In this document: positions 510 through 25,206 of the stretch, piece after piece
Numbering within the stretch: the stretch's first letter is position 1
How the letters are laid out: each line of letters starts with the position of its first letter
Assembly: GCF_963678975.1 (NCBI RefSeq)
Contig: NC_089274.1
Location: 45,600,075 to 45,664,074 of the forward strand
Length of the DNA stretch: 64,000 nucleotides
Reading direction: 5' to 3'
Source of the DNA: Dysidea avara
Taxonomy: Eukaryota > Porifera > Demospongiae > Dictyoceratida > Dysideidae
Notes under the pieces: model-generated
What the model was told of the DNA's origin: nothing
Seen by the model: only the letters and a program-made list of their open reading frames with translations
Databases searched by the model: none
Position numbers and translations under genes: made by a program

Positions 510-514
510 GTATG

Positions 515-528
515 TCCAGGTTTGCCAA
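515..528. repeat. Left terminal inverted repeat of the KDZ element
   Basis: TCCAGGTTTGCCAA; its exact reverse complement is at 25193-25206. The apparent 17-bp match (512-528) includes three bases contributed by the partly palindromic target duplication. Confidence 0.7.
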
Positions 529-559
529 ACAATATCCCTATGTTGTCAAAAGTTGTCCT

Positions 560-2860
560 ACAGTCCAAAGGTTCAACTAAAGGAGGTCCAGAGGTTGCTG
601 TCTTCAAATCCCAATGTCCAGAGGTCCAAAGGTTCCATCACAGGACTGAGGTATTATCCTTGCATTATCCCAAGGTCCAGAGGTTGCTGTCATCTAATCC
701 CAAGGTCCAGAAGTCCAAAGGTTCAACTACAGGACTGAGGTATTATTCCTGCATTATCCCAAGGTCCAGAGGTTGCTGTCATCTAATCCCAAGGTCCAGA
801 AGTCCAAAGGTTCAACTACAGGACTGAGGTATTATCCCTGCATTATCCCAAGGTCCAGAGGTTGCTGTCATCTAATAGAGGCCCAAAGGTTCACTATAGG
901 ACTGAGGTATTATCCCTGCATTATCCCAAGGTCCAGAGGTTGCTGTCATCTAATCCCAAGGTCCAGAGGTTCAAAGGTTCACTATAGGACTGAGGTATTA
1001 TTCCTGCATTATCCCAAGGTCCAGAGGTTGCTGTCATCTAATCCCAAGGTCCAGAAGTCCAAAGGTTCAACTACAGGACTGAGGTATTATCCCTGCATTA
1101 TCCCAAGGTCCAGAGGTTGCTGTCATCTAATAGAGGCCCAAAGGTTCACTATAGGACTGAGGTATTATCCCTGCATTATCCCAAGGTCCAGAGGTTGCTG
1201 TCATCTAATCCCAAGGTCCAGAGGTTCAAAGGTTCACTATAGGACTGAGGTATTATCCCTGCATTATCCCAAGGTCCAGAGGTCCAAAGGTTCAACTACA
1301 GGACCGGGGTATTATCCCTACGTTATCCCAAGGTCCAGAGGTTGCTGTCATCTAATCCCAAGGTCCAGAGGTTCAAAGGTTCACTATAGGACTGAGGTAT
1401 TATCCCTGCATTATCCCAAGGTCCAGAGGTCCAAAGGTTCAACTACAGGACCGGGGTATTATCCCTACGTTATCCCAAGGTCCAGAGGTTGTTGTCATCT
1501 AATCCAGAGGTCCAAAGGTTCAACTACAAGACTGAGGTATTATCCCTGATTATCCCAAGGTCCAGAGGTTGCTGTCATCTAATCCCAAGGTCCAGAAGTC
1601 CAAAGGTTCAACTACAGGACTGAGGTATTATCCCTGCATTATCCCAAGGTCCAGAGGTTGCTGTCATCTAATCCCAAGGTCCAGAAGTCCAAAGGTTCAA
1701 CTACAGGACTGAGGTATTATCCCTGCATTATCCCAAGGTCCAGAGGTTGCTGTCATCTAATCCCAAGGTCCAGAGGTCCAAAGGTTCACTATAGGACTGA
1801 GGTATTATCCCTGCATTATCCCAAGGTCCAGAGGTCCAAAGGTTCAACTACAGGACCGAGGTATTATCCCTACGTTATCCCAAGGTCCAGAGGTTGCTGT
1901 CATCTAATTCCAAGGTCCAGAGGTTGTTGTCATCTAATCCAGAGGTCCAAAGGTTCAACTACAGGACTGAGGTATTATCCCTGCTTATCCCAAGGTCCAG
2001 AGGTTGCTGTCATCTAATCCCAAGGTCCAGAAGTCCAAAGGTTCAACTACAGGACTGAGGTATTATCCCTACGTTATCCCAAAGTCCAGAGGTTGCTGTC
2101 ATCTAATCCCAAGGTCCAGAGGTCCAAAGGTTCACTATAGGTCTGAGGTATTATCCCTGCATTATCCCAAGGTCCAGAGGTTGCTGTCATCTAATCCCAA
2201 GGTCCAGAGGTCCAAAGGTTCAACTACAGGACCGAGGTATTATCCCTACGTTATCCCAAGGTCCAGAGGTTGCTGTCATCTAATTCCAAGGTCCAGAGGT
2301 TGTTGTCATCTAATCCAGAGGTCCAAAGGTTCAACTACAGGACTGAGGTATTATCCCTGCTTATCCCAAGGTCCAGAGGTTGCTGTCATCTAATCCCAAG
2401 GTCCAGAAGTCCAAAGGTTCAACTACAGGACTGAAGTATTATCCCTACGTTATCCCAAAGTCCAGAGGTTGCTGTCATCTAATCCCAAGGTTCAGAGGTC
2501 CAAAGGTTCACTATAGGACTGAGGTATTATCCCTGCATTATCCCAAGGTCCAGAGGTTGCTGTCATCTAATCCCAAAGTCCAGAGGTCCAAAAGTTTAAC
2601 TATAGGACTGAGGTATTATCCCTACGTTATCCCAAGGTCCAGAGGTTGCTGTCATCTAATCCCAAAGTCCAGAGGTCCAAAGGTTCAACTACAGGATTGA
2701 GGTATTATCCCTGCATCATCCAGAGGTTGCTGTCATCAAATCCCAGGGTACAGTGGTTCAAAGGTTCAACCATAGGACTGAGGTACGTATTATCCCTAAA
2801 TTATCCAAATACCAAAAGGCTGCTGTCCTTATATTTAAAGATCCTGAGGTCCAAATAAAG
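560..2860 (+). repeat. Left subterminal minisatellite array (~89-bp compound unit)
   Basis: About 2.3 kb of tandem units built from two related modules: one with CCAAGGTCCAGAGGTTGCTG followed by TCATCTAAT, and one with GTCCAAAGGTTCAACTACAG followed by GGACTGAGGTATTATCC. Some copies lack a module, and subtypes (CTACAGGAC or CTATAGGAC; TGCATTAT or TACGTTAT) alternate. Long ORFs through the array exist only because the unit happens to lack stops in some frames; they are not genes. Units degrade toward the inner edge (2700-2860). Confidence 0.93.
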
Positions 2861-5078
2861 TGTATGTCATGCGTATGAAGTTTATATTGTTTTAGTTGAT
2901 TTCTTGCATTTACGTTGTGTATAGATTATTTATATAATTGTATATATGTGATTCTAAATCTATATGCCACATGTCAGATAACCAGAAAGTGTAATATAGC
3001 CATGTATTCAGTCACTTAAGTTATAATTGTAATTTAAAACAAATTGATTGTGGAGAGAATACAACTGACTATAAATCATTCATGTACAATGAAATGTATA
3101 GTAGTAATTTTCTACATATAGCTAGATGATTTTAACTTGATCAACTCTTTGGCGTTGTGTAAATGGCAAATGTAAGTTAGGAAGAATGTGTATACATGTT
3201 GGTTCATTCTCTTTGTCATCTTTCCAAAAGCTGACATCCATGAAAACGTCTGCTCACACACTTCTGTGTCCACCTAAGGAAATAAGCAGCAGGACATAAT
3301 AATGGTACTAGATAAACATTATAAAAATAAAAGAGAACTATATTTATCATTTTAATTCTCAATAATGCATGTCCTGCAGTAAATTGTAATTGTACAAATC
3401 AGGTGGTCAATCAAAGCATATAAACGTTATGTCTAGGGTGGTGGAGCAACTAAAGCAGATGGGAACTTTAGAGATGGGGTTATACAATGACATTTGAAGC
3501 AGTATTATGTTGATATTATGGGACTCTGAAAATCACAGCATACTTTTCAAGCTTTCTACTTATCCAATGCTATCAATTTTATTGAATCTTAATAGAGATG
3601 TATGTGTGGAAATTTTAAAATATTCTATCCCTCATCAAGTACACTGACCTAAATAGCCAGGAATTATCAGCATACTATTGGTTGGTCCTGAGATATATGT
3701 ACTGTATAAGTGTATATATATAAAATTTTAGTCAACTAAGAAGCAGCTCACCCAGATGCAATGTAACTATATACATAAAAGCAAAGCAACTCCGGCAGCC
3801 ATGTGAAACACAGATATAATTGCTGCCCAGTGAACCAACACTGGGATGCCTGTGCACCACTCAAGCACGTATGCCTTGTGCAGGTAAATCCTCCTAGGGC
3901 GGGGCTAGTAATCTGCAGGAGGACTGTCCAGGTCTCATGGAGAGAGGTCACGGAACCCAAAGTTTCACAACAACCCCACCACCACTAAGCAAGACAATGA
4001 TAGTTGGGCGTTTGCTTCCCCAGGTATCCATCGATGTGGTTTCAAGGGTATTCTATCACATATTGAACAGTCATATTTGATTCCAGTAAATAGCGATTTA
4101 AGTAACAGGGTGAAAGTACAGGTACTGTAGTCTAACTTAACTAATTGTGATAGCTAATAATACAGCCATACAGGTAGGTGCCTGGGTATGGCATATAAGA
4201 TACTGTGCTAGGTACGCATAGCAATTCATAATTATTAATGAGAAACATGGGAATGCTATGCTAATAATTTGCCAAATTTTATTTTTTCCAGCAGTGGTAT
4301 TGTTTTTTTCCTCTAATTTCACTTGAAATCGTCACACACAGATCTCTATTCAGACTGAATGGATATGCATAGTTTCCATAAAATTATGGTCAGATACAGG
4401 GTGGGTTTGACATGTCTACTGCAGTGATAGAATGATTTTATTGATTGACTCTTGTTCTTTAGTGATCTCAATTTCACACAATTACATTTTAAAAGTATTC
4501 TTATCAAAACAGCACAGTATAAGTACTGTTTAAGTAGGGATCGCCCCAAAACTGGTACACACCACCAAAAATGCCACCATTAAAAGTCATCAGTTACAGT
4601 TGACATTACATTTGTTTTGCCCTTAGTAAAATGGCTGATAGTTTGCACCCAAGGCACTTTTATGGTCACAAATCTTCATTGCACACCTTTATACAGTGTA
4701 CACTATAATAATGTGACTGGAATCACTGGTGTGGGAAAAGTAGTCTTATTGCCCATGACAATAAGCTTGAATTTTAGTCCCAAATGTATATAGCTACATT
4801 AATACACTAGTTATTAAATTTCACTCTCATAACCAGCCAGATTTAAGTGGTCTGCTTCTGTTGACTGTGTTTTCCAAGCACAGTGTGGTGAGCCTTTCTA
4901 AGTCCAGTGCCTTGATGAAGCTATGGCCAATCAGGAGGTGGCTATGTGTATGGCGGTACAGCTCCATGGTATTGGATAAATAAGTTTTCTTTGTATCTTT
5001 AGCTAATTGTGGTCCCCATGACTTAGCCTAATACACACGACACATTCCTGTTTCATTATTTCATTAATCTTTTCCTTA
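2861..5078. other. No gene recognised; AT-rich interior between left array and MITE
   Basis: No ORF or splice-supported exon was convincing. The block at 3740-4010 contains GCAGCCATGTGAAACACAG, related to 29720-29775, so it is probably an old dispersed repeat. The missing C-terminal exon(s) of the minus-strand KDZ gene could lie here or at 5710-6180. Confidence 0.4.
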
Positions 5079-5709
5079 CACTGTTAAAATGAGGTGTTAC
5101 AGGTGCACCCATCGTAAAGGTGTTCATGTACACCCATGGTATTTACAACACCCTAAGGGAGTACTGTAGCACTAGGGGTGTTATTGAACACCACAAATGT
5201 CACTTTATTCCCCATAATAGCTAAGCCACTGTAAGGGTGTTTGCCTACACCTTGGTATATTGAAACCCACAATCGGATGCTTCTATTAAAAATTAGGTTA
5301 TAAATACATTTTGTTAACTTCTATAAGAGTGACTTGGAAACAACCATGTGATAAGTATAAAAATGTTGCAAAAATATAATTGTGTACTGCTAATGTGGTT
5401 TGTTGTTGTTAATCATTGCGTATAAATTGAAATCAACATGAAGGTTACCGGAATGTTATAGCAAGCCTACATTTCTTTTCAACAAAATGCCACCATGGAG
5501 AGCACTAGAACACCTTTAAAGTGTACTGTGACGCCTTTATTGCTATTCCTAGAACACCCTTAGGGAGTATTGTAATGCCTTTGTAACACCTTTTAGTTGC
5601 TCCTAGAGCACCCCTGGGGAGTACTACAACTCCCTTCAAAGGAGTTTAATTTAAACAGCAGTTAGAACTCCTCTAAAGGTGATTGGATTACACCCTATTT
5701 TTAACAGTG
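5079..5709. mobile_element. TA-flanked MITE with CACTGTTAAAA ends
   Basis: Starts CACTGTTAAAA and ends with its complement TTTTAACAGTG, flanked by TA on both sides (5077-5078, 5710-5711), as expected for a Tc1/mariner-superfamily MITE. The interior repeats short blocks around AACACCCTTAGGGAGTA. A second copy of this family, split by a nested insertion, spans 53394-58146. Confidence 0.72.
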
Positions 5710-6179
5710 TACTTTGGCCCTTTTTCTGTTACACCTTATTAACTATAAGTCATTGAAGTCTAAATCATTGTATTTAGGTTAGGTAATCCAAAGGCTGCAA
5801 CACAAGTTGCTGTCAGACCTTCAGTGCTGGTCACTGTAAAGTGTTAATAATAATAACCTTTTGCCCTCCTCTCCACCCACTACTGCTCACCTGATACAGT
5901 CAATCTGGATCAACCTTGGTAAAACCCATCTAAAATGGCAGGAAACCTATCTATTGGCTACCTGTTCTTCAGTGGATCATTTAAGGAATTGGCATGAAAG
6001 CAAAACATGTGAAAATCTTGTGCACATAGCTACAAGAATTGGTGAACTACAACACTCAAAACCGGTATTTCTTAACAGTTAATTGTAAACAGATGATACT
6101 ACCAGTTATTACAGAGACAGTCTCAGATGGAAATTTGGCATTTGTATATTAATAACGTCATACAATTCATATAACTTAC

Positions 6180-9100
6180 ATCATTAAGCTCTTCAAAATT
6201 GTTCGGATCACAATTTTCAGCACACCACTTGTCAACATGTCCTCTCATGTGTAGCTTATCTATTACAATCTCTATCTTAGCCAGTGCAGCAGCAGCTGAA
6301 GACACTTCATTACGTTGGGAGTTTCTGGCATACTTTCTCAAGTGACATCCATCATCATAACATATAAACTCTATATTTAAATATAGAATATATTTGGGTT
6401 ACATGGTTATGCTTGTTTATAGTGTGTAGCCTTATTAATTTGTTTTGCATGTCTGACAATTGATCACAACTGTATGGAGACATAATGGTGTGTACTAGTA
6501 TTATTGCAAGACAGTCACATACAACCATTATCTGTAATTCATGATGCATCAATTATTGTCAAGAGTGGTAATAGTAAAAGGCTTCATTACAGACCTACAT
6601 CTTAAATGGTGCAGATAATGCAGAGTGGATTTTGATGTCTAGCTGGAATCTCTTTGACAAAGGAACTTGGAGGAAACTGGATTGGCACTAACAGGCTTGT
6701 AGCTAACCACAAATCAACAAACCACATCCACCATTCTCTAAGCTAGTAAGTCATACACTAGTACCTAGCACCTTAAAGTAAATTACTTTAGAGTACAATT
6801 GCAAGCAGTGGTGGGTGTAGGGGGGTTGCAATAGTTACAGCTAAATCCCCCTCTGAAAATAGCACACGTTCCCCTAATATATTTACAATTCGTGTGGGTG
6901 ATAACATCACCAAGAGTTATACATAGTGTATATATTATATTAGGACTTTTTCTACTGGCCAAACTTCATACTTTTCCTTTGAAATCACCATTACGACATT
7001 CAACAGCGGGTAGTTGCATTTTTCTTTGGTCTTTGACTTAAAACTAGGCTAAAGTTACTATTCCAGAGTGGAATTCCCCTTTCATAAAGTCTGGATCTGC
7101 CCCTGACAGTTATTAAAAACTTCCTCAACCTGAAACCCCCACTGAAAAACTAGATCAACCACTGACAAGGATGCAGTAAAATTATTCTATCACCTCCCCT
7201 TCAATTACCTCAAAGATGCAAGAAGTCAAAGTCTTACTATGGTACAATGGACATGATAGCCCTTGCATAATTATATTTTGCTTACATTAATCATTATAGC
7301 AGGAACACATACACAAAATCACATAACAAAGTGTGAGTTTTGTGCTTTTTGTTGTATAATACATACACTCCTGATTATAATAATAACAACTTACTTATAG
7401 TGGAGCAGACATCAGGGAATGTATTGTACATGTCATACAAGTATCCATATACAAGCCCAATTGACTCAGAACAATACAGTTCATTAAGTGATGTTATGAT
7501 TCCACACGGCCACATTGTTGCAAGTACACCTAAAATTGTATAAATTTATCACACATGCCACATTAGCATAAAATTCACTAATATACGTGTAATAAAGTAT
7601 TGCAAGTTATCTACATTCCATAATCTGAATGTTGGTGCACCATATAATAGTATGTAGTTTGGAGTTAGAAACATTTTGTAGAATCATCCTTGGACCATGA
7701 ATTGTTCAACTAATTCTAATTCAATGCTTAATAAGTCGGCACAAAATACATTTGCAAACTCCATGTGCTCACAGGCACAGTCCCGGTAACATTTGTACAT
7801 CTCTAACTTGTCCAGAAACATTTTTGGCATATTCTAATTATAAAGAAGATAAATTATAGACCAAAATTTTGCTCTTTTATCAGCACAAAATTTCTCAACC
7901 TTAAACATTTATTAGCAATAAAGTTATATATATGTACCTGCTGTTCTGTGATTCAAACGCATGTTCTTATCCTTCTCAGTATTGCACTTCAACTTATCTT
8001 CCTTCATATCATTATCCATGAGTTTCCTGGTAGAGCAGAACTTAAAGTCACCATAGATGTGATTGTCTTATTTATATGTACAAGTAAATGTAATTTTTGA
8101 ATTTTTTAGCTAGGGATCATGGTAGAAATAAAAAGTAAAGATACAAGGGTGATTGCCTACACCTCCAGCCATATAAATTATACTAGTGAACATATAATCA
8201 CTACTAGTCATGACATGAAAGGATGTAGACTGAAGTATATCCATTAGTATATAGGTGATCATCCCTATGAACTTATCTTCGTTTACTCTTTGTAACTAGC
8301 TAGTGAACCCAAGCATACAAAATAATGGATCCAGACATCTGAACATGCATACCAATAATATTAATCAGTGAAAAGTCAATGGGTCATTCCGGTTCACTTT
8401 TTTTGTTCAGCACTTTACAAATGAAGAATAGCATTAGAACCACCTCTACAATCAATCCAGTCACTATAATTATGGAAAATAGGAAAGATTCACTCATCTA
8501 AACACTCGTGCCCCAACCATCAACTTGTGAAAGTTACTGTACTATGTTCAGCCCATTACACAGTGTCACAAAGTACAAGATTGTGTGGAGCATGTCTGCA
8601 GTTAGTATGGATAATATGGACATTTACTGCATGGGAAGCCACAGTGATGCACTACTATGAATCGACACCTTACACTGTCAGCAAAAGCATTGGGACACAA
8701 AAGAGGTAAGTCCATGATGCATTCATTGTATGTACTGCAGTATGCCAAATTGCACCAGTCAGGATGAAGCGACGTCTAACAGGGAAAAAGTAAGCCCTTA
8801 GCCTTAACTGTTGTCAAGTTATGCTTGTCTGAAGGCATCAGTTACAGTAGTAGTCAATCAGTAGAATAATTTCTTAGCAACCTAACATACACATAATTGG
8901 CTGCTCTGAAGACACTTTTGGGCTTAATTCCACTGAGCCATGAACATGATCATTACTAGATTAGAAACCCTAGCTTCATTGCAAAAAGGAACTTTTCCTG
9001 GGTTCCCAACCTAATATTATTATATGAAGGTGAGTAAGAGAGATTTAATAAAATGCTGTTCCACACTTTGAAGTGACAAAACAACCTTCTCCTTATCTGA

Positions 9101-12100
9101 CAACAGAGCTACTACAATTTAATTAGTACTGCAATTTCATACTGACAGTCACTACGTATACATGGTGAAATTTTAGCTAGACAGTAGAAAATTTCCATTA
9201 ATTTTGAGCAAAATAGATATTATCTTGGAACAAAACTATGGAGTACAATTGGTAGAAAAAGCAAAATAGCATAGTGATACACAAACCAACAGGGTTGGAT
9301 TCAGCCAAGAACAGGTCTGATTGCTTGCTAAATATAGTAAGACTACTGGGTTGCTACATAGATGAAGAAAGCAACTACAAATACTTAATTAATACCTATT
9401 AACTACAAATAATGTGTGAAGAAGTTTAATTGATGCTGATTCTTAATTTTATTAATATTACAATGAAAATTTATTCTAAAGGTATTACTGTCACATATAC
9501 TGTAGGATAAAGCTGACACATTTTATGACTTGCAATTTAAATAATAAATAAATAAATTTATGGTTATAAAAAATCATAACCAACCACACACATCTACCAA
9601 CGCCTTAATGCATGCAGGCCCAAACAAATATATCTATCAACCAATATAAACTTTCTGCTTTCATAAATATCACCAAGGTGGGATTTATTCTTACCCTTGT
9701 GTCATTACTGTTTCATCCTCTGTATCAGTGCGTCTTCTTTTGGCACTATGATCTTTGCTTTGATCATCAGCTTCTTTATTGTCATCTTCATTATCATCTT
9801 CATGTCGTTTATAGTCCTCCACCATTTCTTTAGTAACATTAGATTCTGGTTCCCAAGTAACTTTATCATTTGGTCCAACACATAAAACCTTTAATTTTGC
9901 ACAATCATAATGATACACACTGTCGCACTATTGAATTTACATTTAATTTTGTATAAAATGCACCACATAGACCCTGCAAAGAAATGGTATACTGTGGTAT
10001 TTCAAAATTAATACGTTTATGTATATGCAGTTGTGGGACTAGAATAATGGACTGGACCACTGGACTTACATAGGTATTGCTCTAACACTTTTTAAAGTTC
10101 ATGCAATAATGGCTTCACATGGTAGACGTACATACAGCTAACTGATTAGTTGATTTGAGTTCGTTTCAGATTTTAAAGCTCTGAGATAGCTTTTTAAAAT
10201 TGCTGGCTAGAAACTTACAGCTTTTAAAAATGTTTCTATTTTATTTGTACATAGCCTTATACCAGCATGCTGTGCATTAGTGTTGTTTTACTACAACTAA
10301 AACTAAAAGTACTTTAGTAAGACAAATATGTTTTAGGTACCTAAAACTATAACTAAAAGCAAATCCATATAAATCTATAATTAAAAAACAACTAAATAAT
10401 TTCATATCAAAACATTTGTCAACTTTTACCATACATTATAAAAATCCGTAACATAAAAAAATACGCAAAAATTATACCGACTGCTAAATACGGCACCATA
10501 ACTTCCGCATACGTTCATTTACGGAGATCTACTATGGCTCATCAGAATCCTTAATCAATGGCGATTCGAGTGATATATAGGAGTTTGTGAAGTAACTAAG
10601 AGAAACGGCAGAATAGAGCCTTGTATCGCTAGATTATGTGTTCAGATAAGTAATAATTTAGCAGAAAATAACTGTTTTTTCGTATGTTTTGCAATGTAAC
10701 TCTGTACAACAATTAGTTAGACACTTACTTCGGGTGGATTCTTAATCAGCAAGTGTCGATACGTAGAATGATACCAAGTTTAGCGAATTTGGTTGAGGGT
10801 AACACATTGCTTTTTTGGGGTTTCCCACCCGATTAATTAAATTCTCCATAGGAAATTGTATGGGGGCACGTATTATGTTGTAATCAACAGTAAATAACTT
10901 TTACTATGGTAACAGTAGAGGGTTACTTCGGGCGGAATCGTGCATAGCAATGCAAGGGCTTTATTTTGTTGTATAATGTCCTGTAGAGATTATGGGTGCT
11001 AATGGTTGCTTTTTGTATTTAGTATAAAATCCATGTATTTTGAATGGGGGAAGAAATAATGGCTGCCGACAAGGTTTTTCAACCAACTGGTTTGACTAAG
11101 TTATGAATACCAAAATGACGTGGAGTTGATTTTAAACTATTTTATTACATAATTCATAAGATGTAATAGTAAAACTTGATGTTATGCAAAATTTTGTTTA
11201 GACCGCTTCGGTTTACAACTCCCAATAGAATGTTTTGATATGTGCCAAAACTAAATCTAAGAATTGGGAAGAATAACTAAAACTATCTTATGCACAACTT
11301 AAACTATAACTAAAACTAAAAGGTTTTCATGTTCTTAAATAAAGCTATAACTAAAACTAAAATGACACAAGCAATATAACCATAACTCAATCTATAACCA
11401 AGAAGAATTACTAAAACTAAACTCATTGAAGAAACTAGCTAGCGACGTAAGACTAAGTAAAACTAAAACTCCTTACTAAAACAACACCATGTTGCTTAGA
11501 TCACTGCATGTATATAAGTTAACATACGTTCTACAGGTGGAACGAAATTAATTATAGCTTTAGTTTAAAAAGTAAAAATCTTTTAGTTATAGTTTTAGTA
11601 AAATCTATAAAAAACCTTTAGTTTTGGTTACAGTTTTAGCTGTACATAAAAAAATTGCATTGCATTGCATAGTGCTTGTATTAGTGCCGGTAATAGGCAA
11701 GTTATCTTCAATGAACTATGCAGTTATACTACCAATGAGATTTAACAAATAATGTACAAATTTTAGTGCCATGGTGAGTTACTTCGTGGTTAAGCAATAA
11801 AACAAAACAACCAGTCCAGTCTTGTAATCCATCCAGTTAATGTATATATATCTAATATTGTGGAAAATATTGTACAGGTCACACTTGTACCAATAGCTCA
11901 TAGAATACCAAACCTATCAGTTGCTTTGGTTATAATTATTAGAAACTGCGTTGTTTGTAAACCAAATCACGGTAAGTACCTTGTATAATTGGTTAATATC
12001 TATGCAAGTATCAATGTGTAATGAATGCTGAGGCATAATATGTTAGATACAGACAGAGTTTAGACTGAAATGGTCAAACAAAAGTGGTTGAATTTGCGAA

Positions 12101-14208
12101 AAGGGGTCTTCCCCACACATCCAATTCTGTGAACTCAGAAGACCATAACTCAGTGTTCAAGAAACATAACATTCTGAAAAATATTCCATCCACTAATCTA
12201 TGTTGGTACTTAGTACTGGTCAAATTTCAAGTCAATAGCCTTTTCCAATCTGAAGTTATGAGATGTCAATGTTGGTAAATTGGATGTGTGTGTAAGACCC
12301 TTTTTTGCAAATCCGGTCACAAATTGTCCTTTATCCATTATGAATCATTATGAATGTAATAATCATTACTGTATACCTGATAATATATTCCAGCACGTGT
12401 GGTCTTCTTGGCTGTAATGACTTTAAGTGGCTGTTCATTTGATGCCCCTGACAATGAAGTATGATCAGCACAGTAGCGGCTTTTGTAAGCTGGTGTATTA
12501 ATACAACCAGTCTTTATCTGACCAGGAAGATTCATAAACTCAATGTGCCCTGAATTCTTTGCAAAGCATATGTCTCTGTGGTTTTTCATATTTCCGTCAA
12601 TCACTAGCACATATCCACAGCCTGGATATAAGCACCTGTGAGCTGCACATGCAAATAAATACATTATACATAAATACTGACTTACAAACCTGAGTATCTT
12701 TGTTTAAAAGCTAAACAGAGCTTTGGGTTAATTTCTTTCAGGGTATAGTGTATGTCTGGTTTGATTGTTGTATCACTAAACACCTCCGGAAAACTTCTCT
12801 GGATACGAAGTACCGCAAACCGCAAATGCGCATTTTCCAGCCTCCTTCTATCAAGTGGTGTTCTGTTGCTACAATAATGGTCAATATAAAATATAAATAA
12901 GAGTTGCTACTAGACAAGCTATATACACCTAAGCAATACCCATTATACACAAGAAACTGCAAATTCTAAGTGGTGATACATGTAAAGGTCACATTTTATA
13001 TGTACCAAATTGAAATAATTATGGTTTGTGTATGTATGCATGCAGGGCTGAAATGTTATTGGGAAAATCAATTTTGTAGTTAAAGTTATCCATAGTAAAT
13101 TTTGTAAAATGACTAAAATGTTTACTCCGGCGTAGAAGCAGTTCATGAACCTGAAATTATTGTTGGACATCTGCTATTTTATTACAAAATCTGGCTAATG
13201 TTTGAACACATTTAGAACAGTACTATTGAGTATGTCCAACCACATAACAGGACTGATTTGTCATCATTTCCAAAACATAATTTCAGACTCTGGAGTAGGA
13301 AATTCTGTGCAAATGAAGTTATACTGATACTTTAAATACATATCTATTAGCAACAGGAGTCAGAATGCTAGTGTAATCATTTTACATAACAAGTGGTATT
13401 ATATCAGACTGTCTAATTAAATTCCTTTAGAAATTATTTGGGATCTGTATTTCATGTGGCATCAGACTAACCTTTTACATGTTTCACTTGTAAGAAGCAC
13501 CTCATCACTTTGAAAAGTTTTACTCTTCTTTTTACTATCTAATTTGGTGTTGCGCTTCTTGAAGCTGTCATAGCATTGGTAATGGTTGTAAATGTCGGCC
13601 TTTTGGTTGTATGATAATTGCCCAATTAAAAGCTCTGAGTCCATCTTCTTCAAAAATTCTGTCTCAAATACCGTCTCTTGTGAGGAAACGAAGTATGGGA
13701 GGTCTGCCCAATTATCATCATACTGTGCACCAGATTTCAGCCCACTAGTTACATAGCCATAGTGTTGTACAACTTTACATTTGGGATTTTTGCACAACTT
13801 ATGGTAGTGCATTCCAACAGTAGTACCCACTGATTCAGAATAAATCGTGACTTGGCTAGGACGATCAGACCTTAGTCTAAGACTGTTGCCACACTGGAAA
13901 CACGAAGATTTATCGGAAATCAAAACCACGCCCAACTCTCCGCTTCCGTCGCGCTTTTGCATGTGCACCAGTTCCTCTGCGAGCTCTCTGTCAGATATAA
14001 ATGCAGCAGGATAAATGGTCCTGAGATTTTGCAAGGCTATTTGTAGCTTCCTTTTAAAACTCTCTTCCAAGACATCTGGGTTGTCACCTGTAGCGAACTT
14101 AACCACCGTCTCCCAATAAAGAGGATACTCCTTTGGTAAAGCAGCAGACACGAAAATTAACCGTCTACGTACAACAGCACTTGGAACTAGTGTACACAGT
14201 ATATCCAT
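6180..14208 (-). CDS. KDZ transposase (CxC5, CxC6, chromo-like, KDZ), 7 exons, C-terminus unresolved
   Basis: Exons on minus, with GT-AG boundaries and matching phases: 14208-13472, 12868-12690, 12642-12377, 9927-9695, 8026-7938, 7529-7395, 6370-6180; together 1830 nt, 610 codons, no internal stop. Residues 103-144 hold a CxxC...C(x4)C cluster like the CxC5 domain tied to KDZ transposases. Residues 309-366 (CLYPGCGYVLVIDGN, then C331, C352 and a final CADH) match CxC6. Residues 398-434 (TWEPESNVTKEMVEDY) resemble a chromodomain end. The KDZ block has a Cys exon ending HRTAG, WPCGII at 508-513, YDDGCH at 551-556 and DKLHMRGHVDKWC at 584-596, the family's conserved acidic and Cys/His positions. 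The first in-frame ATG is at 14208, but the frame stays open upstream to about 14319. A further ~100 residues usual after FEEL were not found. It probably catalyses mobilisation of the surrounding element. Confidence 0.8.
7690..7840 (-). other. Unassigned coding-like stretch in a KDZ-gene intron
   Basis: After an acceptor-like TATAATTAG the minus strand is open for about 50 codons and Cys-rich (KCYRDCACEH) before a stop. Its phase does not fit between exons 8026-7938 and 7529-7395, which join cleanly without it. It could be an alternative terminal exon, a remnant, or chance. Confidence 0.2.
8527..9060 (-). repeat. Dispersed repeat 'R', diverged copy in a KDZ intron
   Basis: Carries the family hallmarks in inverse sense: GTTCAGCCCATTACACAG, GTAAGTCCATGATGCATTC, GTTGTCAAGTTATGCTTG and CTGAAGACACTTTTGGGCTT. 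Related to copies at 18930-19540, 45940-46575, 51395-51967 and 61905-62400. Confidence 0.6.
10270..11495. mobile_element. Probable inserted element with AACTAAAACT-rich subterminal repeats
   Basis: GTGTTGTTTTACTACAACTA near 10275 and the complement of GTGTTGTTTTAGTAAG near 11480 form imperfect inverted ends. Both flanks carry many AACTAAAACTAAAA-type repeats, with more of them in the opposite sense at 11560-11640. It lies in the 2.4-kb intron between KDZ exons 12642-12377 and 9927-9695. Boundaries are approximate. Confidence 0.45.
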
Positions 14209-14476: not shown

Positions 14477-17400
14477 ATGAATAGCACACTGAAGGAATTT
14501 GTGTCTACCAGCCAAGCGAAGGTTAGCGCAGAAGCTGCTGAGACGAGAAGAAGGTTGGAGAGATGCTGGCCTTTTGACGTGAATTGGGATCTTTACCCCA
14601 AAAAGCTTTCTCTTGTAAGTTAACAATACATGAATAGCGAAAATAGACTTGTGCATAAACTAGCTACGTTGGATACTATAGATAGCAGAATGTAGCTACC
14701 TACTGATTAGCTACCTATATTCTACCCTGAGTAGCTTTTGTGTATCACAGCCGGCAGTGACCAACACCGAAGGTCTAACTGCAACTTGTGCTGCAGCGGT
14801 CTTAGGATTACATGCATGTAGCTACTTTCATTTAATTTTTGTATCTGTAAGTGTTTAGTGCTGTATATGGAAGAATGTTCCAAGAGAATAAATAGATTTT
14901 CTTCATAGGGTTGTAAGCAGTTTGGAAAGTCTCTTGGAGTTCCATCAAGTTGTATATTGGCCGGGCTTGTAATCCTATGCAGTTTTATGTTGTCTCCAGC
15001 CCAAGTCGCTGTCCCAGGAACAAGCTGGACAGAACCAGTTCTTGTATGGATCACAATGTCGATGTCGACAGGTTCTAGGAAATCAACTATATATAGTCTG
15101 CTATCCAGGATTGTCAAGGATGTGAAAGAGAAAGTTGGGATTAAAGGTGAGGTTTTGTTTACCAGAATGTTCTTTATATAAAAAAATTATCATGGTGTAT
15201 CTAGGCACACAAAACATTATTAAAACTGTGTATTGTTTCTGCAATCAACACTAGTGTAAGATTTTACTGATCCAGTAGCTACATGGCTTCATAATTACTT
15301 ACTCCATTTTACACCACTTTAAAAATCACTTACTATTTACAATTTAAAATGTCACAAGTCTACTCCTTAGAAAAGTTTCTAAGTGCATACAGCCCATTAC
15401 AATTATGTCACAGTAGAGAGTCCAAGCAATTCATTAGACTGAACTTCTTGTAGCTACAGTAGCTACCACCAGGTGAATGCATAACATTGATAGGAAGAAG
15501 CAATTATTGTTTGCATTTCTACTGCTGTGAAAGGATAGCAAGACATCCTGTATATAATTAACACTATAATAATCCCTGTGTCCATGGTTACAACCAGGTG
15601 GATGGTCTTAGTGTTACAAAAGTGCTACACAGTGAATGTCACTGAAGCAGCTGGTTACAATGTTGTGCAGATATATTCTCACCTGTATGGCTAACTATCA
15701 ATGTGTGAGCTGAAATCGTTAATGTTCTTCATGTACAGTAGATATAATGACATGAAATGGCTACTGTTTGATATGAAATAGCTACAATTTGAGCCTTAAA
15801 AACCACACTCATGGGGAGTTTGGAGAATGTGAGCTATAGCTATATGCTAGCTATAGCTATATGCTAGCTATAGCTACATGCTAGTTCAAAGGGTTACATT
15901 GTATGCCTGCATTTTGTTTAGAAACAAGATCATGGGAAATGAAGGACACAAGTTTTCAGAAGATGGGAGAACTAATGGCAGATAACGATGGAAGACTTTT
16001 GGGAATTTTTGATGAACTCTCCTCATTTTTGGCCAAAATAAATATTTATAATGGCAAAAGTATATGTGACTCCAACGAACTATCAATGCTATTAGAGCTA
16101 TATAATGGCAATGGTTGGTCAAGGAACACTGGTAAGTTATTTTTTGTTATTGCATGAATAATCCTGTTAATACAATAGCCAGAACGTAGTGTCACAGTCC
16201 CAAAATAACAGTTCACATATATTTTATATATACATGCACACATCATGATTAGTATTATCATGATAACATGTCATGCAGCTATGAACAAATGGATAGTCAT
16301 CACTATACACAGAATCCAAGAAAACTTTATTTTCAACAGTATGGATATGTAGTACTATCATACACTACAGTAGTACTGCATATCTGGGGATGATTAGAGT
16401 CTCAGAGTAGCCAAAAATGTTGCTAGCCAAGTAGCTATGAAATTTAATTCAGTGGAATTTGTGCTGACTGACCGGTTTAATTTAGTGGAATTTTCTGCTG
16501 ACTGACCGATGCCTGCCTTCATACAGGTGTAACTCCATAACAGCTAAGGTTACAGGCTTGATTTATTCACTGTTAGACATTATATACTTCAGCCCAATTG
16601 GTATATTGCAGCATAATTATATTAATTTCATTAAATTTTAATTATGAGGCAAGCTATGTAAAGAAAGCCAAGCTATTTTGCATTAAACTAGTTGTCTTAC
16701 TTGCTAGTTTTTCTACATGCCTTACTTTGTAAAATGTGAATTCTACCTTGAATCTATATCTATATATATCCAATGTAAAGGTTTGCAACTGCACCAAGGG
16801 GGTTAGAATTTTTAGAACAGTTTAGTTACTATTAAAAGTGTGTGGGTGCCAAACTTTGGACAGTTTTTGTTTTCAATGTTCTATCTTCACCATGCAAGCA
16901 AATCATTTCATACGGTGATAAAACCTATTCTATGGTGCATCCGTCCTGCAAGTTTCATTATAATATCTCCATCAGTTCAGGAGCTATGCTCCAAAATTCA
17001 ATTGTGTGTAATTTTCGTGAATGTTTGTAACTGCGGACACTTGTTATTACGCCTGAAACAATGTTTCAGAAGATGATTTCAAATTTTAAACACTGCCACA
17101 TTTAACTTAATAGCATCTATTTCCCACTTCGTACTCAAATTTGAAAGTAATAATTCTTGCATTGTCAAGTTTTGGAAATTTCAATCAAAGTGTATTTCGG
17201 CAAGTTTAAGTGCAGTTTGAATGAGACTGGCTCATACAAAATCATCCATAATGAGTATTTGGCTGATTGAGTGACTGTAAACGAATGGAACTTGGTACAG
17301 TGGTAATTCATAGTAGGCATTTCTGCCCTTTTTAGAAAATGGACATTTTATATGCTCATTGTATAGATAGAGTATTGATCGCTGATCTCAGAAATATATT

Positions 17401-20400
17401 ATTTTGTTGGGTTGGAATTGGCTACTTTGGCATGCACAGTTCTTTTACAAGGCTCCAGAGCTCCACATACATTTTAAAAGAAAATATGGCACAATTGAAA
17501 TAGGAAGCCATCTAGTAACATGGACTGTCTAGAAATTTCTATAGTTATGCAGTAGTTGCAAGTTTGTACATGTAATGAGAGTAACTTTAGGTTTTGTTGA
17601 TACCCAGTGACCTTAGTATATACGCCTTGTGGTGAACAAATACTGATGTTTCACCAAATGGGCACTTGTCAATACAATGCTGTATAGTTACCCAATGCAA
17701 GGCAAGTGGCTATCTCAAGTAAGTGAAAAATATTAAAAGTTAACAAGTTATAAAGGTAACAACTGAAGTGGAGGTGTGTCACAATGATGCAACAGTATTC
17801 CTGCCTTGCCAGTGGGAATTCATAGAGAATCTTTTATTTTAAAAATCTTGGATACTGAAATGCCTATTCGTAGTTGTATTCTGTGCTGTACTAAAATCAG
17901 CTAGATAGCACTATTTGCTTCAAATATTGAACATCATATCTCAAAAAGTAGCTGCTGTATTTATTTGAGATGAATGCTTCATTTATGATGATACTATGAT
18001 TCCAAAATGTACTGCTAGTTAAGGTGACTGACTGATGCATTCAGACAAGCGTAACTCGATAACGGCTGGCTTGATTTTTTCACTATTTGGTGTCACTTTG
18101 GTCCGAGAGGTGCCTTTTGGCATACTACAGTGCGTACAATACTATGCATGACAAAATTATCAAAAATTCATCGCACTTGGTGTGCAACATAATGCTATGT
18201 CTTAACACATTAGTTCAAATCTATTGTTTTACTGTAGTGTCAGGTGAAGCCAACTTTCAAATGCCAAGTACAAGCTTGACAGTTGGGGGATTTAATCAGC
18301 CACCAATAGCACGAAGCCTGATTGAAATACAGCGAAACGCTGAGAAAGGACTGTCACAACGATTTATGTGGTTTTTCCCCAAGCCAATTTGTGGAAAACT
18401 TCGTGATCTGCAGCCACTGGATAAAATCTTTTATGATCAGCTTGGTATGAAATAAACATGTAAATACATGCAAGTATCTCTTTGTTTGTATAATTTAAGT
18501 CAATTTTGTTGTTTATGTGTTTGTCAGTTTCACAGGGTAGTCAGGCATGAATGCAGTTTCATTGTAAACATACCTGAGTGTTAAACTATGGTGTACAGTG
18601 TCCCACCTACTTCAAAAATCACCTAGCACAGAACAGTGTTATTATTTCAACCAGAGTAATTATCAGTGAAAAGTGAGAATCACAACATTCAGTAAACATT
18701 TTCTGACCTGGCAAAATATTGGGAAATGGATGGCAATCTTGCTAATTGGTCGGCAAATGGCTGATGGCCAACTGTTACTGTCATCCTAAGCACATTCTTT
18801 CCTGAGTATATATTTTACATAGCTGTTCTCAAGTAGATATTGTTTTAGGGTGTACATTATGTCTAATATGCAACAGATGGCTCCTTTATCAATGTAACCA
18901 TACGGCACAGTATCACAGGGAGTCATAATCATGCAGTACGATATACTGTATAGTAGAGTCCACAAAGATGCGGGTGTGGCCCATAAAAACAACATTTAAA
19001 ATCCTGCATCATTTCCCCTAACAATGATGAAGCAGTATTGGTTAGATAAAACTAAGCCCACAAGCCTTCAGATTGACCCAAAATGCTTTCAACAAGTTGC
19101 TAAGGGATTTTAAAAATATATGTTTAACAGAATTTCTACTAACTGACTGACTGACTGATGCATTCAGACAAGCGTAACTCGATTACGGCTGGCTTGGTTT
19201 TTTCACTATTTGGTGTCACTTCGGTCCGAGAGGTGCCTTTTGGCATACCACAGTGCATATAATGCATTCTTCATGGACTTACCAGTGGCCTCCTTTATGT
19301 CCAATTCATCTTTGCTGATAGCAAAAATCAAAGTGTCGATTTTGGCAGTAGCACGTGATGGCTTTCCTTAGGCTACTTTGATTGCAGAGGTGCTTTTTGA
19401 ACAGCTCTTGATTTTTAATGCTGTGTAATGGGTAGAACATAGCTGATACACTTTTAAGATGATAACTGATAGCTGGGGTACACGGTATCATTTCTTTCTT
19501 TTGATGCGGTATGCATAGGTTCACCAGTCATAGTAATTTTGTTTTACAAACAAAGTTAACAAACAAGTACACAAAAGAGTTTGGAATTTTCGACAGAGTA
19601 GGGACCATTACTTGAGCACAGTAGGGATATACACTTCTTATGGCTTTACTGTGATTATATTTTAATACTGTGCACTACTTCAGCTTGTTTCAGAGCTTTT
19701 ATCAATGTGTTATGGTTCCTACTCTAGTTGAAATTCCAAACTATTTTGTGTACTTGTTAAGGAAAACAATGTCCCTGAAGCTACTACAGACTTTTAAGAG
19801 TCTGTGTTGCCAATGATGCTATGTTATGTAGCAGTGAATGTCCACAACATATTTATGCTCCAAATGGGAAGCACAATGACTATATACACGGGCTGAAACT
19901 AAATGGATATAATACATTCATGCAAAACTACCACAAATTTATTGGAGACAGCAATATAAGATGTCAATGTAACTATTGATATTTGTCTATTCTGTGTTAC
20001 AAGTCACCCCTGAACTATGAATACAACATACCAAATAGTTGGTAACACATACATTGATTTGGATATCTGATTTATAAACACAATACTTGGAGCTGCATTT
20101 ATAAAACAAAACAACTATTGCCACATTTCCTTGAGCATTATATTTACAAATCAGATATGGGTAAGTATATATTAACTGTTACTTAAATATAATATTTTAG
20201 TTGACTTGTTTTTTGAAACCTGGCAACGTGGAAATGATGACTCAGATGACTGCCTGACAACTCGTGAATTTATATTTTTAAATGAGCACTTTGCTACTAA
20301 ATATGATGAAATTCAAGAGGCAGTAAGCAAGTTGGCAGGTTTAGATGATTTGCTTGCTGGTGAGATATGCATAAGTTTATGCGTATATGCATGTAGCAAG

Positions 20401-23278
20401 CCTAGTCAAGATACACTAATATACAATATAATAATATTATCATGTAATAACACATGTGTATGAAGAAACAGTGACTTTGTAAATGTTAGTGAGTACACAA
20501 CAAATCATAATGGGTAATGATGTGGATAGCATAACCCTGTATCATGCAGATACTATTATTATGTGCCTTCCACACACATGTCCATTTTATTAACTTTGGT
20601 AATTCATGACGTCACACTGGTAAAAATATTAATGTAAAATTTGGTCAGTATTGAGCACTAACATAGCTTAGCAGATGTTTTTAGTCTAAAAAACATTTAG
20701 GTATGTCTATAAAAACAATCCAGTGGTAGCACTCGTGTTGGCTGGGGTGGTTGACCACTCAGCATGGTGAGAGATATCAGCCTTCACCGGCTTGGGTGAT
20801 TAGTTGTACTGGCATGAGCGCTGTGGGCTATTAGCCTGCACTAGAGCAAACTGTTCTTTATTGCCCACAAAGAATGCTTTATTGCACGACAAAGAATGCT
20901 TTATTGTACTATTGAAGTACTCTTTGTGGGCAATAAAGCACTGTTTGCCGTCATAAAGTGTACTTTATGAAATTTAAAATACACTTTTCCTTTGATCTTG
21001 CCCATGCAAAGCTCTATAATTATATTATAATGTGTAAACCAGAGAAACAATGAAAGTACTATACACGGATGATAATTACAGCTCAAATATTTCATAATCT
21101 TATACTGTGTTCACTCACATCCTGGCTGAAATTTGGAAAGAATGATCTGACTAGCTAGACTTAGAAATGCACTAAGATTAAGCATCATTTCAACAGATTT
21201 GTGACAACAGAGTCACTGTGTGTACTTTACTGATAAAATGCAGCTAGTCGTGGCAAACTTAATATTATTTTTAAATTGTAGAGATAGTGCACACAACCAG
21301 TATATGGAACCGTTTCCAAACATAATGCAATGTAGTCAAATTTTATGTACTCCTCGCATCAGGGACTGTGACCAAACTGTTGGAAATCAGCATGTAGTAC
21401 CAACAATCGTATTGTAATGCTTAATGTTACTACTTTTACTTTATTAGGCATGCTCAGCAAATCAACTGGTCAAATACTAAGAGTGGCAGCATGCTTCAAT
21501 GTGTTGTTCAGGATCCGTGATTCAACTGAGCCATGGCCAGAAAACAATCCAGAAGACAAGATTATTCATGATGCTATAAAAGCCGGGTGTGATTTTGTGG
21601 ACATATGCTGTATTCACACAGCATTCATGGCTGGGAGGTCAACCTCATTATCAAAAACGCAGGAACTTAAAACAAGCGATGAGAATTTTTTCCTTGTATT
21701 TCCTGGCGGTGTATTAATTTTAAGTGATATCATAAATGCAAGAAGGTTTAAGAGTAGGGGGAAAAAGGATGAGGCTGTAACTGCTTTAACAGCACTGCAA
21801 AATGATGGCTTGGGAACACTGAGTGACTTACCATCATCCAAGCATTCTGCACACACTGTGAGTGTCATGTGTAGTAGTATTATTGTGTTGATACAAAAAT
21901 CACTTATTGCACTACAACAGAATAGTGTATGAATAATGATGTAGGAGCTCTCCTATTATTAACTATGATGAGAAATTGACCATTAAATTCATGTCCTAGT
22001 TATTGTATGATATATAAGTTTGATTTGCACACTTATAGTGGTCTAACTCACAGAATGCGTGAATAGCAATCTCAGCAAAATTGCAACATCTTGAGAATTT
22101 AGGACCCGTGCATTATAGACTCGCGTAGCCAGACTGCTTTTTTCTTTTGTGTGGGCATCGGGGAAAATCCCTGACACCCACATAAGTAAAAAGCTGTCTG
22201 GCTACATGAGACTATGCATTATATAGCTCCAGAAACATTAAATATATACAGCAGTGCATGGAGTTAATAGATGTTTATGTAAAAGTGTACTTTAGGTCAT
22301 GTACACTTTCTCGTCCTTTCCTGGGTCTGACTACATCAAAAAAATTTTGGTACTGCTCATGGTTGATTGCAGATAGAACTGTATACGTAAGTTGGTTACT
22401 TGCTAGAAAAGTCTAAAAATTTACATTTCATATCATAATTATGAACTTTCTAATTTCTATCGATGTAGCTAAACGCACCTTCTCACATTGTAATCAAGTT
22501 TATGTTGCATAAATTCAAATTTGCTCTCATTTTAATTGTTTATTATTATAGGATGTACAAATAACGCAGTATGCTTAACTACATATACTACTATATAATG
22601 TAAATCATACATGTACAAATTATCTGATAGGCATATCAATTCACTAAGGCTAAGGTGCCAGATTCACCAGAAGGTAAAGAAAAGTTTGCTGCTGCCTTGA
22701 TGAAGCACGGGGTTTCACTGGAGGAATATGTAGAGGCATTTCAAAAGCCAAACTTCGTACATGCACCGTAAGCAATTTATTATATAGATGATTTGTGTTC
22801 CAAGTTGACAATACTACAAACAATACTTACCAATGATATTGTTATAATCGTGAAGTGTTCTCGATCAATGTTCTACCCATACTTGCCAAAGTAGTTATCC
22901 AATTGTTAGCAGCAAACACACCTTAGTTTACAGCATACAACACTAAAACTTAAACTGAGATTTCTGCTTATTGCCCAATAAACACCTTAGTATCTAATTA
23001 CAGTTAAAAAGCTACATCATTGTCCTACTATCACTCTATCAATCATACGTATAGTATTACAAGTAAAACTACAGATGCTAAGCATTTATCCAGTCATATA
23101 ATTTGTATACAGTAGACAATTTTACTGTCAATCATAATTGTAAAAATAAAGATTTATAATTTATTACTTTGATACATATGTTTTCAGGCCATCAAAGAAG
23201 AAGAGGGCAATTATAGAGCCTGGTGAACAGAGCAAAACCAAAAAGTCCAAGGAGGTTGCAGAGTCAGATGAGGACTGA
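14477..23278 (+). CDS. DUF3987-like P-loop protein, 9 exons, complete (561 aa)
   Basis: Exons: 14477-14614, 14751-14846, 14909-15146, 15922-16131, 18238-18444, 20201-20359, 21448-21857, 22631-22767, 23188-23278. All introns are GT-AG, all phases agree, and the sum is 1686 nt ending in TGA. Residues 129-138 (SMSTGSRKST) are a Walker A-like loop with Arg where Gly is usual. Residues 181-190 (GRLLGIFDEL) are Walker B-like. QRFMWFFPKP near 268-277 resembles the block that follows in DUF3987 proteins (PF13148), which in bacteria and phages often accompany primase or replication functions. The C-terminus has a basic PSKKKR signal (533-538) and an acidic end. Pairing with a KDZ transposase inside one set of TIRs suggests an accessory ATPase in transposition or element replication; that role is inference. 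The DUF3987 assignment was made by eye. Confidence 0.78.
18020..18160 (+). repeat. Dispersed repeat 'R', fragment
   Basis: Contains CATTCAGACAAGCGTAACTC and GGTCCGAGAGGTGCCTTTTG, near-identical to the middle of the copy at 18930-19540. It lies just upstream of exon 18238-18444 of the DUF3987-like gene, so the intron tolerated the insertion. A weaker match lies at 16480-16560. Confidence 0.65.
18930..19540 (+). repeat. Dispersed repeat 'R', full-length copy
   Basis: About 600 bp, starting near CTGTATAGTAGAGTCCACAA, through GCAGTATTGGTTAGATAAAA and a short ACTGACTG run, to GATGCGGTATGCATAGGTTC. Short frames within it are not conserved between copies. It is immediately followed by the palindromic element at 19561-19757, an arrangement partly repeated near 58560-58920. 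Confidence 0.7.
19561..19757. mobile_element. Palindromic foldback MITE (family V)
   Basis: The arms begin CAAACAAGTACACAAAAGAG and end with the near-complement CTATTTTGTGTACTTG. Internal blocks GAGTAGGGACC and GGTTCCTACTC pair, giving a hairpin of about 200 bp with a loop near 19640. Related palindromes lie at 29785-29962, 33776-34068 and 58613-58921. Confidence 0.7.
20690..20960. repeat. Dispersed repeat with terminal hairpin (second copy at 43020-43220)
   Basis: Shares CAATCCAGTGGTAG, GCCTTCACCGGCTTGGGTGA and CTATTAGCCTGCACTAGAG with 43040-43175. The end folds on itself: TTTATTGCCCACAAAG (20857-20872) pairs with CTTTGTGGGCAATAAA (about 20922-20937). Confidence 0.7.
22115..22212. mobile_element. 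Short foldback element
   Basis: CTCGCGTAGCCAGAC and GTCTGGCTACATGAG form imperfect inverted ends about 95 bp apart, with TGTGGGCATC pairing the later CACCCACAT inside. It lies in the intron between exons 21448-21857 and 22631-22767. Confidence 0.55.
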
Positions 23279-23739: not shown

Positions 23740-25190
23740 TTTTTGGACATCAGGACATTGGGATTTGATGGCAGCTACTTATGGACCTTGGGATATAGCT
23801 TATGGATAAAACCTCAGTTGTATATTTGGACCTCTGGACTTAAAGGATAACACCTCAGTTGTATAGTTAAACCTTAGGACCTCTGGATAACTAAGGAATA
23901 GTACTTCAATTGTACAATTAAACCTTTGAACCTCTGGACCTTGGGATTTAATGGCAGCTATCTCTGGACCTTGGTATATCTTTGGGATAATATATTAGTG
24001 AACCTTTGGACCTCTGGACCTTGGGATAACTAAGGAATAGTACCTCAGTTGTATACATAGTTAAACCTTTGAACCTCTGGACCTTGGGATTTAATGGCAG
24101 CTACCTCTGGACCTTGGAATAACTTTGGGATAATATATTAGTGAACCTTTGGACCTCTGGACCACTAAGGAATAGTACTTCAGTTGTATAGTTAAACCTT
24201 TGAACCTCTGGACCTTGGGATTTAATGGCAGCTACCTCTGGACCTTGGAATAACTTTAGGATAACATATTAGTGAACCTTTGGACCTCTGGACCTTGGAA
24301 TAACTAAGGAATAGTACCTCAGTTGTATAATTAAACCTTTGAACCTCTGGACCTTGGGATTTAATGGCAGCTATCTCTGGACCTTGGTATATCTTTGGGA
24401 TAATATATTAGTGAACCTTTGGACCTCTGGACCTTGGGATAACTAAGGAATAGTACCTCAGTTGTATACGTAGTTAAACCTTTGAACCTCTGGACCTTGG
24501 GATTTAATGGCAGCTACCTCTGGACCTTGGGATAACTTTGGGATAATATATTAGTGAACCTTAGGACCTCTGGACCACTAAGGAATAGTACCTCAGTTAT
24601 ATAGTTAAACCTTTGAACCACTGGACCTTGCGATAACTTAGGGATAACACTTCTGTTGTATAGTTAAACATTTGGACCTGTGGACCTTGGGATAACTAAG
24701 GGATAACTACCTCAGTCCTATAGTTGAACCATTGGACCTGTGGACCTTGGGATAACTAAGGGATAGTACCTCAGTCCTATAGTTGAACCATTGGACCTAT
24801 GGACCTTGGGATAACTAAGGGATAACTACCTCAGTCCTATAGTTGAACCATTAGACTTGTGGACCTTGGGATAACTAAGGGATAGTACCTCAGTCCTATA
24901 GTTGAACCATTAGACCTGTGGACCTTGGGATAACCATGGGATAATACCTGGGATGCATTGGACATCCGGATAACTTAGGGATAACACCTCAGTTTTATGG
25001 TTGAACTTCTGGACCTTTGAATAGCTTAAAGATAATACATCAGTTGTGTACTTGAACCATTGGACTTCTGGATAACCTTGAAACCTGAAGATTTAATGAC
25101 AGCAACCTCTGGAGGACCTTGGGATAAGGTAGGGATAATCACACAGTCCTATAGTTGAACTTTTGGACCTTTGTATAACTAAAGGACTTT
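23740..25190 (-). repeat. Right subterminal minisatellite array, inverted copy
   Basis: Reverse-complement members of the family at 560-2860: the strand shown reads ACCTCTGGACCTTGGGAT and CTCAGTTGTATAGTTAAACC repeatedly. Spacing is more variable than on the left, with variants such as ATAATATATTAGTGAACC. The orientation opposite to the left array is what terminal inverted repeats of one transposon would show. Confidence 0.92.
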
Positions 25191-25192
25191 TA

Positions 25193-25206
25193 TTGGCAAA
25201 CCTGGA
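25193..25206. repeat. Right terminal inverted repeat of the KDZ element
   Basis: TTGGCAAACCTGGA, exact complement of 515-528, at the outer edge of the right minisatellite and followed by CATGTATG, a one-mismatch copy of the left flanking octamer. Confidence 0.7.

Follow-up and report, generated by a model that had tools for sequence, protein, structure and literature searches.

A complete KDZ-superfamily transposon of Dysidea avara with minisatellite inverted ends and a divergently paired DUF3987 ATPase gene

The 64,000-nucleotide stretch of Dysidea avara DNA analysed here (the window; C3:45600075-45664074) contains what is almost certainly a KDZ transposon: a complete KDZ-superfamily DNA transposon of 24,708 bp with borders at 507 and 25214. 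It carries two divergent genes, one for a KDZ transposase and one for a DUF3987 P-loop ATPase, and inverted minisatellite arrays lie beside its terminal inverted repeats (TIRs). KDZ elements count among the largest DNA transposons of eukaryotes. We consider it probable that this is a recently moved KDZ transposon in which the arrays act as cis sites and the ATPase as a co-factor; our confidence in this combined reading is set at that level because CxC5 is not listed on the joined transposase protein.

Borders, copies and target-site duplications

The assembly searched comprises 550.8 Mb in 108 contigs. It yields 34 homeodomain matches, with several near one another on C10, as would suit an animal genome. 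The exact 14-mer TCCAGGTTTGCCAA, which forms the ends of the element, occurs in it 11 times, against 0 control matches, and six of these matches form three inverted pairs approximately 23-25 kb apart, so that the other loci with the same ends anticipated in the original prediction were indeed found. These pairs delimit the three full copies of family A, namely the window copy, C14:4.66M (copy 2) and C14:7.85M (copy 3). A fourth copy is represented by its right end, at a further match (C1:58.60M, L016), with 96% identity across 3.1 kb. The unpaired matches L015, L017, L018 and L019 were rejected as copies, since no element sequence adjoins them and they look like chance occurrences.

The perfect 14-bp inverted ends described in the original prediction are present at 515-528 and 25193-25206. 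The octamers outside them, CAGGTATG and CATGTATG, do match at 7/8 positions, as was also claimed, but they are not flanking sequence: all three full copies start with the former and finish with the latter in differing flanks. This identity at 3/3 full copies rules the octamer out as a target-site duplication and makes it the terminus of the element, and the borders, placed earlier at 515 and 25206, therefore have to be moved outward by 8 bp at either end. The main features of the ends are as follows.

507-25214, no strand: whole element, 24,708 bp; same termini in 3 copies, left border from paralogous empty sites
507-528, plus strand: left terminus and TIR, CAGGTATG followed by the perfect 14-mer
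25193-25214, minus strand: right terminus and TIR, CATACATG and the left 14-mer, read on the minus strand
499-506, no strand: the 8 left-flank bases next to the element, the expected duplication ACCCCATC, absent on the right side
584-2785, plus strand: left minisatellite array, period 89, approximately 24.8 copies (TRF)
23745-25130, minus strand: right minisatellite array, inverted, of the left-array family; outer limits set by eye
23877-24634 and 24577-24949, minus strand: TRF rows of the right array, periods 143 and 59, respectively

The left border is fixed at 506/507 because three other copies of the left-flank repeat (98.6-99.0% over 506 bases) match the window through base 506 and then diverge. 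A fifth match to this repeat in the assembly, at 77%, lies on C2, and the repeat itself (window 1-506) contains an OTU-like protease reading frame (50.9 bits). The empty-site check proposed earlier thus succeeded for the left flank, with three paralogous empty sites, and failed for the right flank, which in the assembly search matches nothing but itself; the element therefore probably inserted aberrantly or was later rearranged on that side. An 8-bp duplication was sought at the window copy with up to 59 nt of filler allowed on one side, and none was found; a continuation of the left-flank repeat was also sought within the window and is absent.

The Zisupton-type 8-bp target-site duplication, absent at the window copy, is present in copy 2 and in relatives. 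In copy 2 it is perfect, ATAGGTAG, and lies immediately outside the termini; copy 3 has GGCTAGTG at both sides, with eight extra bases ahead of it at the right end. The duplication survey covered 12 copies seen at both ends (three of family A, three long and five short copies of family D, and one of family C9). A duplication at each copy had been proposed as a check, and this held in part: six of the 12 copies carry a perfect 8-bp duplication directly at their termini, in three others a filler of 4 (C5:5.51M), 8 (copy 3) or 20 bases (C9:34.27M) intervenes, and the remaining three, the window copy and two family D copies on C6, have none. These two C6 copies (C6:31072070-31119338 and C6:31301904-31322199) have both flanks in common, so one is a segmental duplicate of the other and they were counted as one event; a distance of 47 kb separates the ends of the former, which suggests that it has taken up a large internal insertion. 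All three fillers adjoin the CATA-type end, as read by eye from the flanks, and two of the three consist of CAGG, the tetramer with which the opposite end begins. The fillers between the CATA-type terminus and the duplication are (CAGG)5 at C9:34281983-34282102, CAGG at C5:5529672-5529791 and CCAGCATA at the right end of copy 3.

The cores of the three full copies diverge by 0.16-0.18%: the window differs from copy 2 at 31 of 19,888 bases and from copy 3 at 32 of 19,905, and copies 2 and 3 differ at 35 of 19,895. Substitutions are no fewer in the exon blocks than elsewhere. This low divergence speaks for recent movement and is uninformative on selection. An extra 253 bp is found in copy 2 only. 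A 633-bp insertion bounded by short inverted ends (CTGTTAAAA..) is nested at 5077-5709 of the window (no strand) and is absent from both sister copies.

The transposase gene and its DUF3987 neighbour

The two genes between the arrays have the following layout, with approximate splice points.

3106-14196, minus strand: gene 1, KDZ transposase
~14196-13465 (CxC5-like), 12870-12688, 12640-12368 and 9888-9727 (chromo-like), minus strand: exon blocks of gene 1
~7995-7927, 7542-7396, 6374-6126 and 3276-3106, minus strand: exon blocks of gene 1, continued
14522-23278, plus strand: gene 2, DUF3987 P-loop ATPase
~14522-14614, 14909-15145, 15933-16133 and 18237-18443, plus strand: exon blocks of gene 2, of which we take the second to hold Walker A and the third the Walker B region
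~20200-20361, 21414-21851, 22652-22768 and 23181-23278, plus strand: exon blocks of gene 2, continued

The original prediction of two intact divergent genes is correct as to their divergent arrangement, and both are multi-exon; 'intact' is borne out just for the open conserved exon blocks. Blocks of both genes align with those of families D and C9 at approximately 33-68% protein identity; codon-position identities from these alignments were left out of account, since selecting the matches for protein similarity biases them. With its exons joined by hand, gene 1 passes the Pfam KDZ cut-off (PF18758; 28.0 bits, cut-off 26.6), a single exon scoring 18.5 bits and falling under it. Single window exons also remain under the cut-offs for CxC5 (20.0 bits, cut-off 26.9) and Chromo (16.0 bits, cut-off 25.1), and neither domain is listed on the joined protein at E values up to 0.1. 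Among single exons of family C9, CxC5 scores 31.4 bits, above the cut-off of 26.9, and Chromo (20.9 bits, cut-off 25.1) and KDZ (19.1 bits) fall below theirs. In Pleurotus, according to extracts of one study, intact KDZ elements are preceded by CxC2 and never by CxC5 or CxC6 (PMC7641404), a pattern which, by analogy, would count against a role for CxC5.

Gene 2 reaches 76.0 bits against DUF3987 (PF13148; cut-off 27) when its exons are joined by hand, single window exons scoring 21.6, 17.2 and 18.2 bits, all below the cut-off; in family C9 one exon alone reaches 57.1 bits, above it. In gene 2, several splice contexts fit GT-AG and appear normal. A minus-strand ORF at 14725-15186 was rejected as a gene, being the antisense of the Walker A exon. 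Relatives of gene 2 were not found in a phage collection, two weak Bartonella plasmid records are annotated YfjI, and a match to a solved structure (E 0.51) was discarded as meaningless. In the sections consulted of PMC5862659, DUF3987 is a predicted helicase in mobile elements of bacteria and archaea and accompanies primases in prokaryotic ones.

The pairing of the two genes recurs throughout the genome. Among the best-scored candidates, 24 matches to the transposase exon merged into 23 loci and 33 matches to gene 2 into 19 loci; 13 of the 23 and 13 of the 19 lie as pairs no more than 20 kb apart, where 0.03 would be expected. All 13 paired loci, across several families, are divergent, and they include several copies of one family and so do not represent 13 independent events. 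Among the matches listed, no partner was detected for 10/23 transposase loci and 6/19 gene 2 loci. The DUF3987 profile alone matches three places in the genome, every one of them at a transposase pair. Another 39 KDZ-profile matches over the cut-off, several with stops, belong to further KDZ lineages that the genome contains, and none of the 39 lies within 20 kb of a listed match to gene 2 or to the window-type transposase. The association with DUF3987 therefore looks particular to this transposase lineage, as judged from these profile and exon matches. The second gene, which had been described as part of a two-gene cargo, is a DUF3987 ATPase recurrently and divergently (13/13) paired with the lineage.

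Minisatellite arrays and gene-less relatives

Inverted arrays of one minisatellite family do lie by both ends of the window element (584-2785 and approximately 23.75-25.13 kb), as originally described. The left array of family A has approximately 24.8 units in the window and approximately 18.8 and 16.8 in the two sister copies. In family D (C6:31.30M), with TIRs CATAAATGTCTAGGATTTCC and CAGGTAGGTCCAGGATTGCC, the left array has 24.7 units of 80 bp, and the right end has 4.6 units of this unit, inverted, plus 21 units of a different repeat, of 81 bp. The inverted arrays of family C9 (C9:6.84M) comprise 18.5 and 10.8 units of 88 bp; its TIRs are imperfect (29 of 38), with no CA at the start of the left one, and its duplication, CCCTCAGA, is perfect. 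The minisatellites of families A, D and C9, all read at both ends, are unlike one another, yet inverted 80-89-bp arrays stand beside the TIRs in 3/3. For a fourth family (C14:9.35M) two features had been predicted beforehand: an array, the main prediction, is present with 3.5 units of 80 bp on the single side that was read, and the word ATCCCAAG, the weaker one, is absent. At a C2 end (35.24M) there are at least 20.9 units of 89 bp.

The array units of families A, D and C9 have in common the word ATCCCAAG, followed by GTCC. In shuffles, any shared 8-mer arose in 64/8000, any 7-mer in 33/2000 and any 6-mer in 221/2000. As a universal array word ATCCCAAG was rejected on its absence from the fourth family, of which one side was read, and words common to all four units compared are not above chance in the shuffle tests.

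The TIR-like pattern CANNNANGTCYAGGWTTKCC has 52 matches in the genome, against 1 in the control; 11 inward-facing pairs, with members no more than 60 kb apart, account for 22 of the 52, and the other 30 are not paired in this way. Five pairs span 8.5-11.5 kb and represent short relatives of family D. They were chosen by the TIR pattern alone, with their arrays still unseen, and no listed match to the transposase or to gene 2 falls inside them. The copy on C4 was read throughout and the other four over approximately 1.2 kb per end. Inverted arrays of the 81-bp type are present at both ends in all five, and four have perfect 8-bp duplications, the duplication of the fifth following (CAGG)5. In the fully read C4 element the family D genes are absent and one 50-bp interior stretch is shared with the family D interior; a 268-aa ORF inside it (L063, 3786-4589) has no Pfam match. 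Arrays that occur without the genes had been put forward as a test of the prediction, and this gene-less C4 copy retains exact TIRs and an 8-bp duplication.

Elsewhere in the window, 31-bp minisatellite arrays lie at 25578-28280, 35825-40801 and, inverted, 54401-57096, and a THAP-domain ORF (44658-45749; 62.4 bits) is situated between oppositely oriented 31-bp arrays. These arrays and the ORF perhaps represent a second element with tandem-repeat inverted ends.

Proposed mechanism and relation to known systems

In the cut-and-paste mechanism that we propose, the transposase would bind many sites in the arrays and form a large paired-end complex, the arrays offering it many binding places on the analogy of Galileo, as presented in extracts of PMC3688188. 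Cutting at the TIRs would be followed by insertion with an 8-bp stagger. The DUF3987 ATPase may serve in trans as a co-factor resembling a helicase or a regulator, whose part could lie in unwinding or remodelling, in commitment to a target or in the repair of gaps. The short copies would have been mobilized in trans, since they retain their ends. We find it fairly likely, on comparison of the families, that the arrays are functional cis sites, and infer with more strength than the original prediction that they may be multi-copy transposase-binding sites.

The arrays may possibly be passive, with no recognition role: TIR-adjacent sequence would then have been expanded by slippage, by unequal exchange or by imperfect repair of gaps. 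The differing number of left units among near-identical copies points in this direction, as do the unrelated sequences of the families and the chance-level outcome of the four-unit shared-word tests; the repeated occurrence of inverted arrays of similar unit length, in 3/3 families read at both ends and 5/5 short relatives, and the one 8-mer common to three families argue for recognition instead. That the DUF3987 gene is hitch-hiking cargo with no role in transposition seems to us somewhat unlikely. A divergent layout constant over several families, protein blocks conserved among families A, D and C9, and DUF3987 Pfam matches confined to transposase pairs all speak against it, whereas the transposase loci with no detected neighbour among the matches listed are in its favour, together with the accessory genes of unknown role that other KDZ elements carry, according to portions of PMC12477816. 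On the evidence of this pairing we lean slightly towards an ATPase that serves transposition.

A replicative element, in which copying would start from ends, or from a circular form, opened by DUF3987 and the arrays would be iteron-like origins, is improbable. It draws on the company that DUF3987 keeps with primases in prokaryotic mobile elements (extracts of PMC5862659) and on the two family D fillers, CAGG and (CAGG)5, which equal the start of the opposite end and would fit joined ends; no primase or polymerase match was found among the scanned pieces, however, and the plain 8-bp duplications in half of the surveyed copies are as expected for a DDE transposase. Least credible by far is an old, non-mobile segmental duplication with repeats. 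The window copy without a duplication and the C6 pair, one copy duplicating the other, might be cited for it, but it is already contradicted by the borders, with exact termini in different flanks, and by the 8-bp duplications.

Within the reading of a mobile element with arrays as cis sites and an ATPase co-factor, a more specific proposal is tentative and, in our judgement, doubtful: a eukaryotic two-component system in which a KDZ transposase, assembled on iteron-like end arrays, works together with a bacterial-type DUF3987 ATPase that is dedicated to it and inherited with it. Such a system would, by analogy, be closer in manner to Tn7, Mu and IS21 than to single-protein eukaryotic transposons. 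The lineage is a candidate two-protein transposition machine, for which test material exists in several families, in full copies that are almost identical and in a derivative without the genes. If true, DUF3987, hitherto a predicted helicase of prokaryotic mobile elements, would enter animal transposition, and how long KDZ elements find and pair their ends would become addressable with expandable multi-site ends.

KDZ transposons (Zisupton, Kyakuja and Dileera) were reportedly described by Boehne in 2012 and by Iyer in 2014. The window lineage agrees with Zisupton in its KDZ transposase domain, its TIRs and its 8-bp duplications. Kyakuja, in extracts of a recent account (Kojima, 2025; PMC12730594), has CA..TG ends like most ends here and differs from the window lineage in its 7-bp duplications and lack of TIRs. 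In the same extracts the accessory gene of fungal KDZ elements is a TET/JBP dioxygenase, in place of the DUF3987 gene of the window lineage, and minisatellite ends, present here, go unmentioned for Zisupton, Kyakuja and Dileera (PMC12730594). Zisupton elements of Pristionchus have TIRs, but no duplications were found for them in the part consulted of PMC9297572. KDZ1-KDZ3 of Cryptococcus have been shown to move and share with the window lineage a KDZ domain, TIRs, 8-bp duplications (4-8 bp in KDZ2/3) and, putatively, a zinc cluster; unlike the window element, they are 9-11 kb long with TIRs of 139-241 bp and a CxC1 cluster, and a term search of the available text returned no minisatellite or subterminal array (PMC12810828). 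The giant KDZ elements of Ectocarpus and Chlamydomonas reach 30 kb and, as here, have accessory genes and nested insertions; a text term search of the accessible portions returned no DUF or minisatellite (PMC12477816).

Large size (up to 30 kb) and accessory genes are already known for KDZ elements, as extracts of PMC12477816 attest, and the DUF3987 partner and the minisatellite ends are apparently new, no report of either joined to KDZ having been recognized in the open literature (a largely title-level search, with subscription journals and Repbase reports outside its range). The window ends resemble those of Galileo, of the P-element superfamily, which, in excerpts of PMC3688188, are long inverted tandem-repeat ends with several transposase-binding sites; Galileo belongs to another superfamily with a THAP-domain transposase, and binding has been shown for it, whereas the window element is known from sequence. 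For DUF3987 and eukaryotic transposons together, the open-literature search yielded just a bacterial study. Tn7, Mu and IS21 combine a DDE transposase with a dedicated P-loop ATPase. These systems are bacterial and their ATPases are of other families; in the window lineage the divergent pairing is conserved, and the partnership is a putative one.
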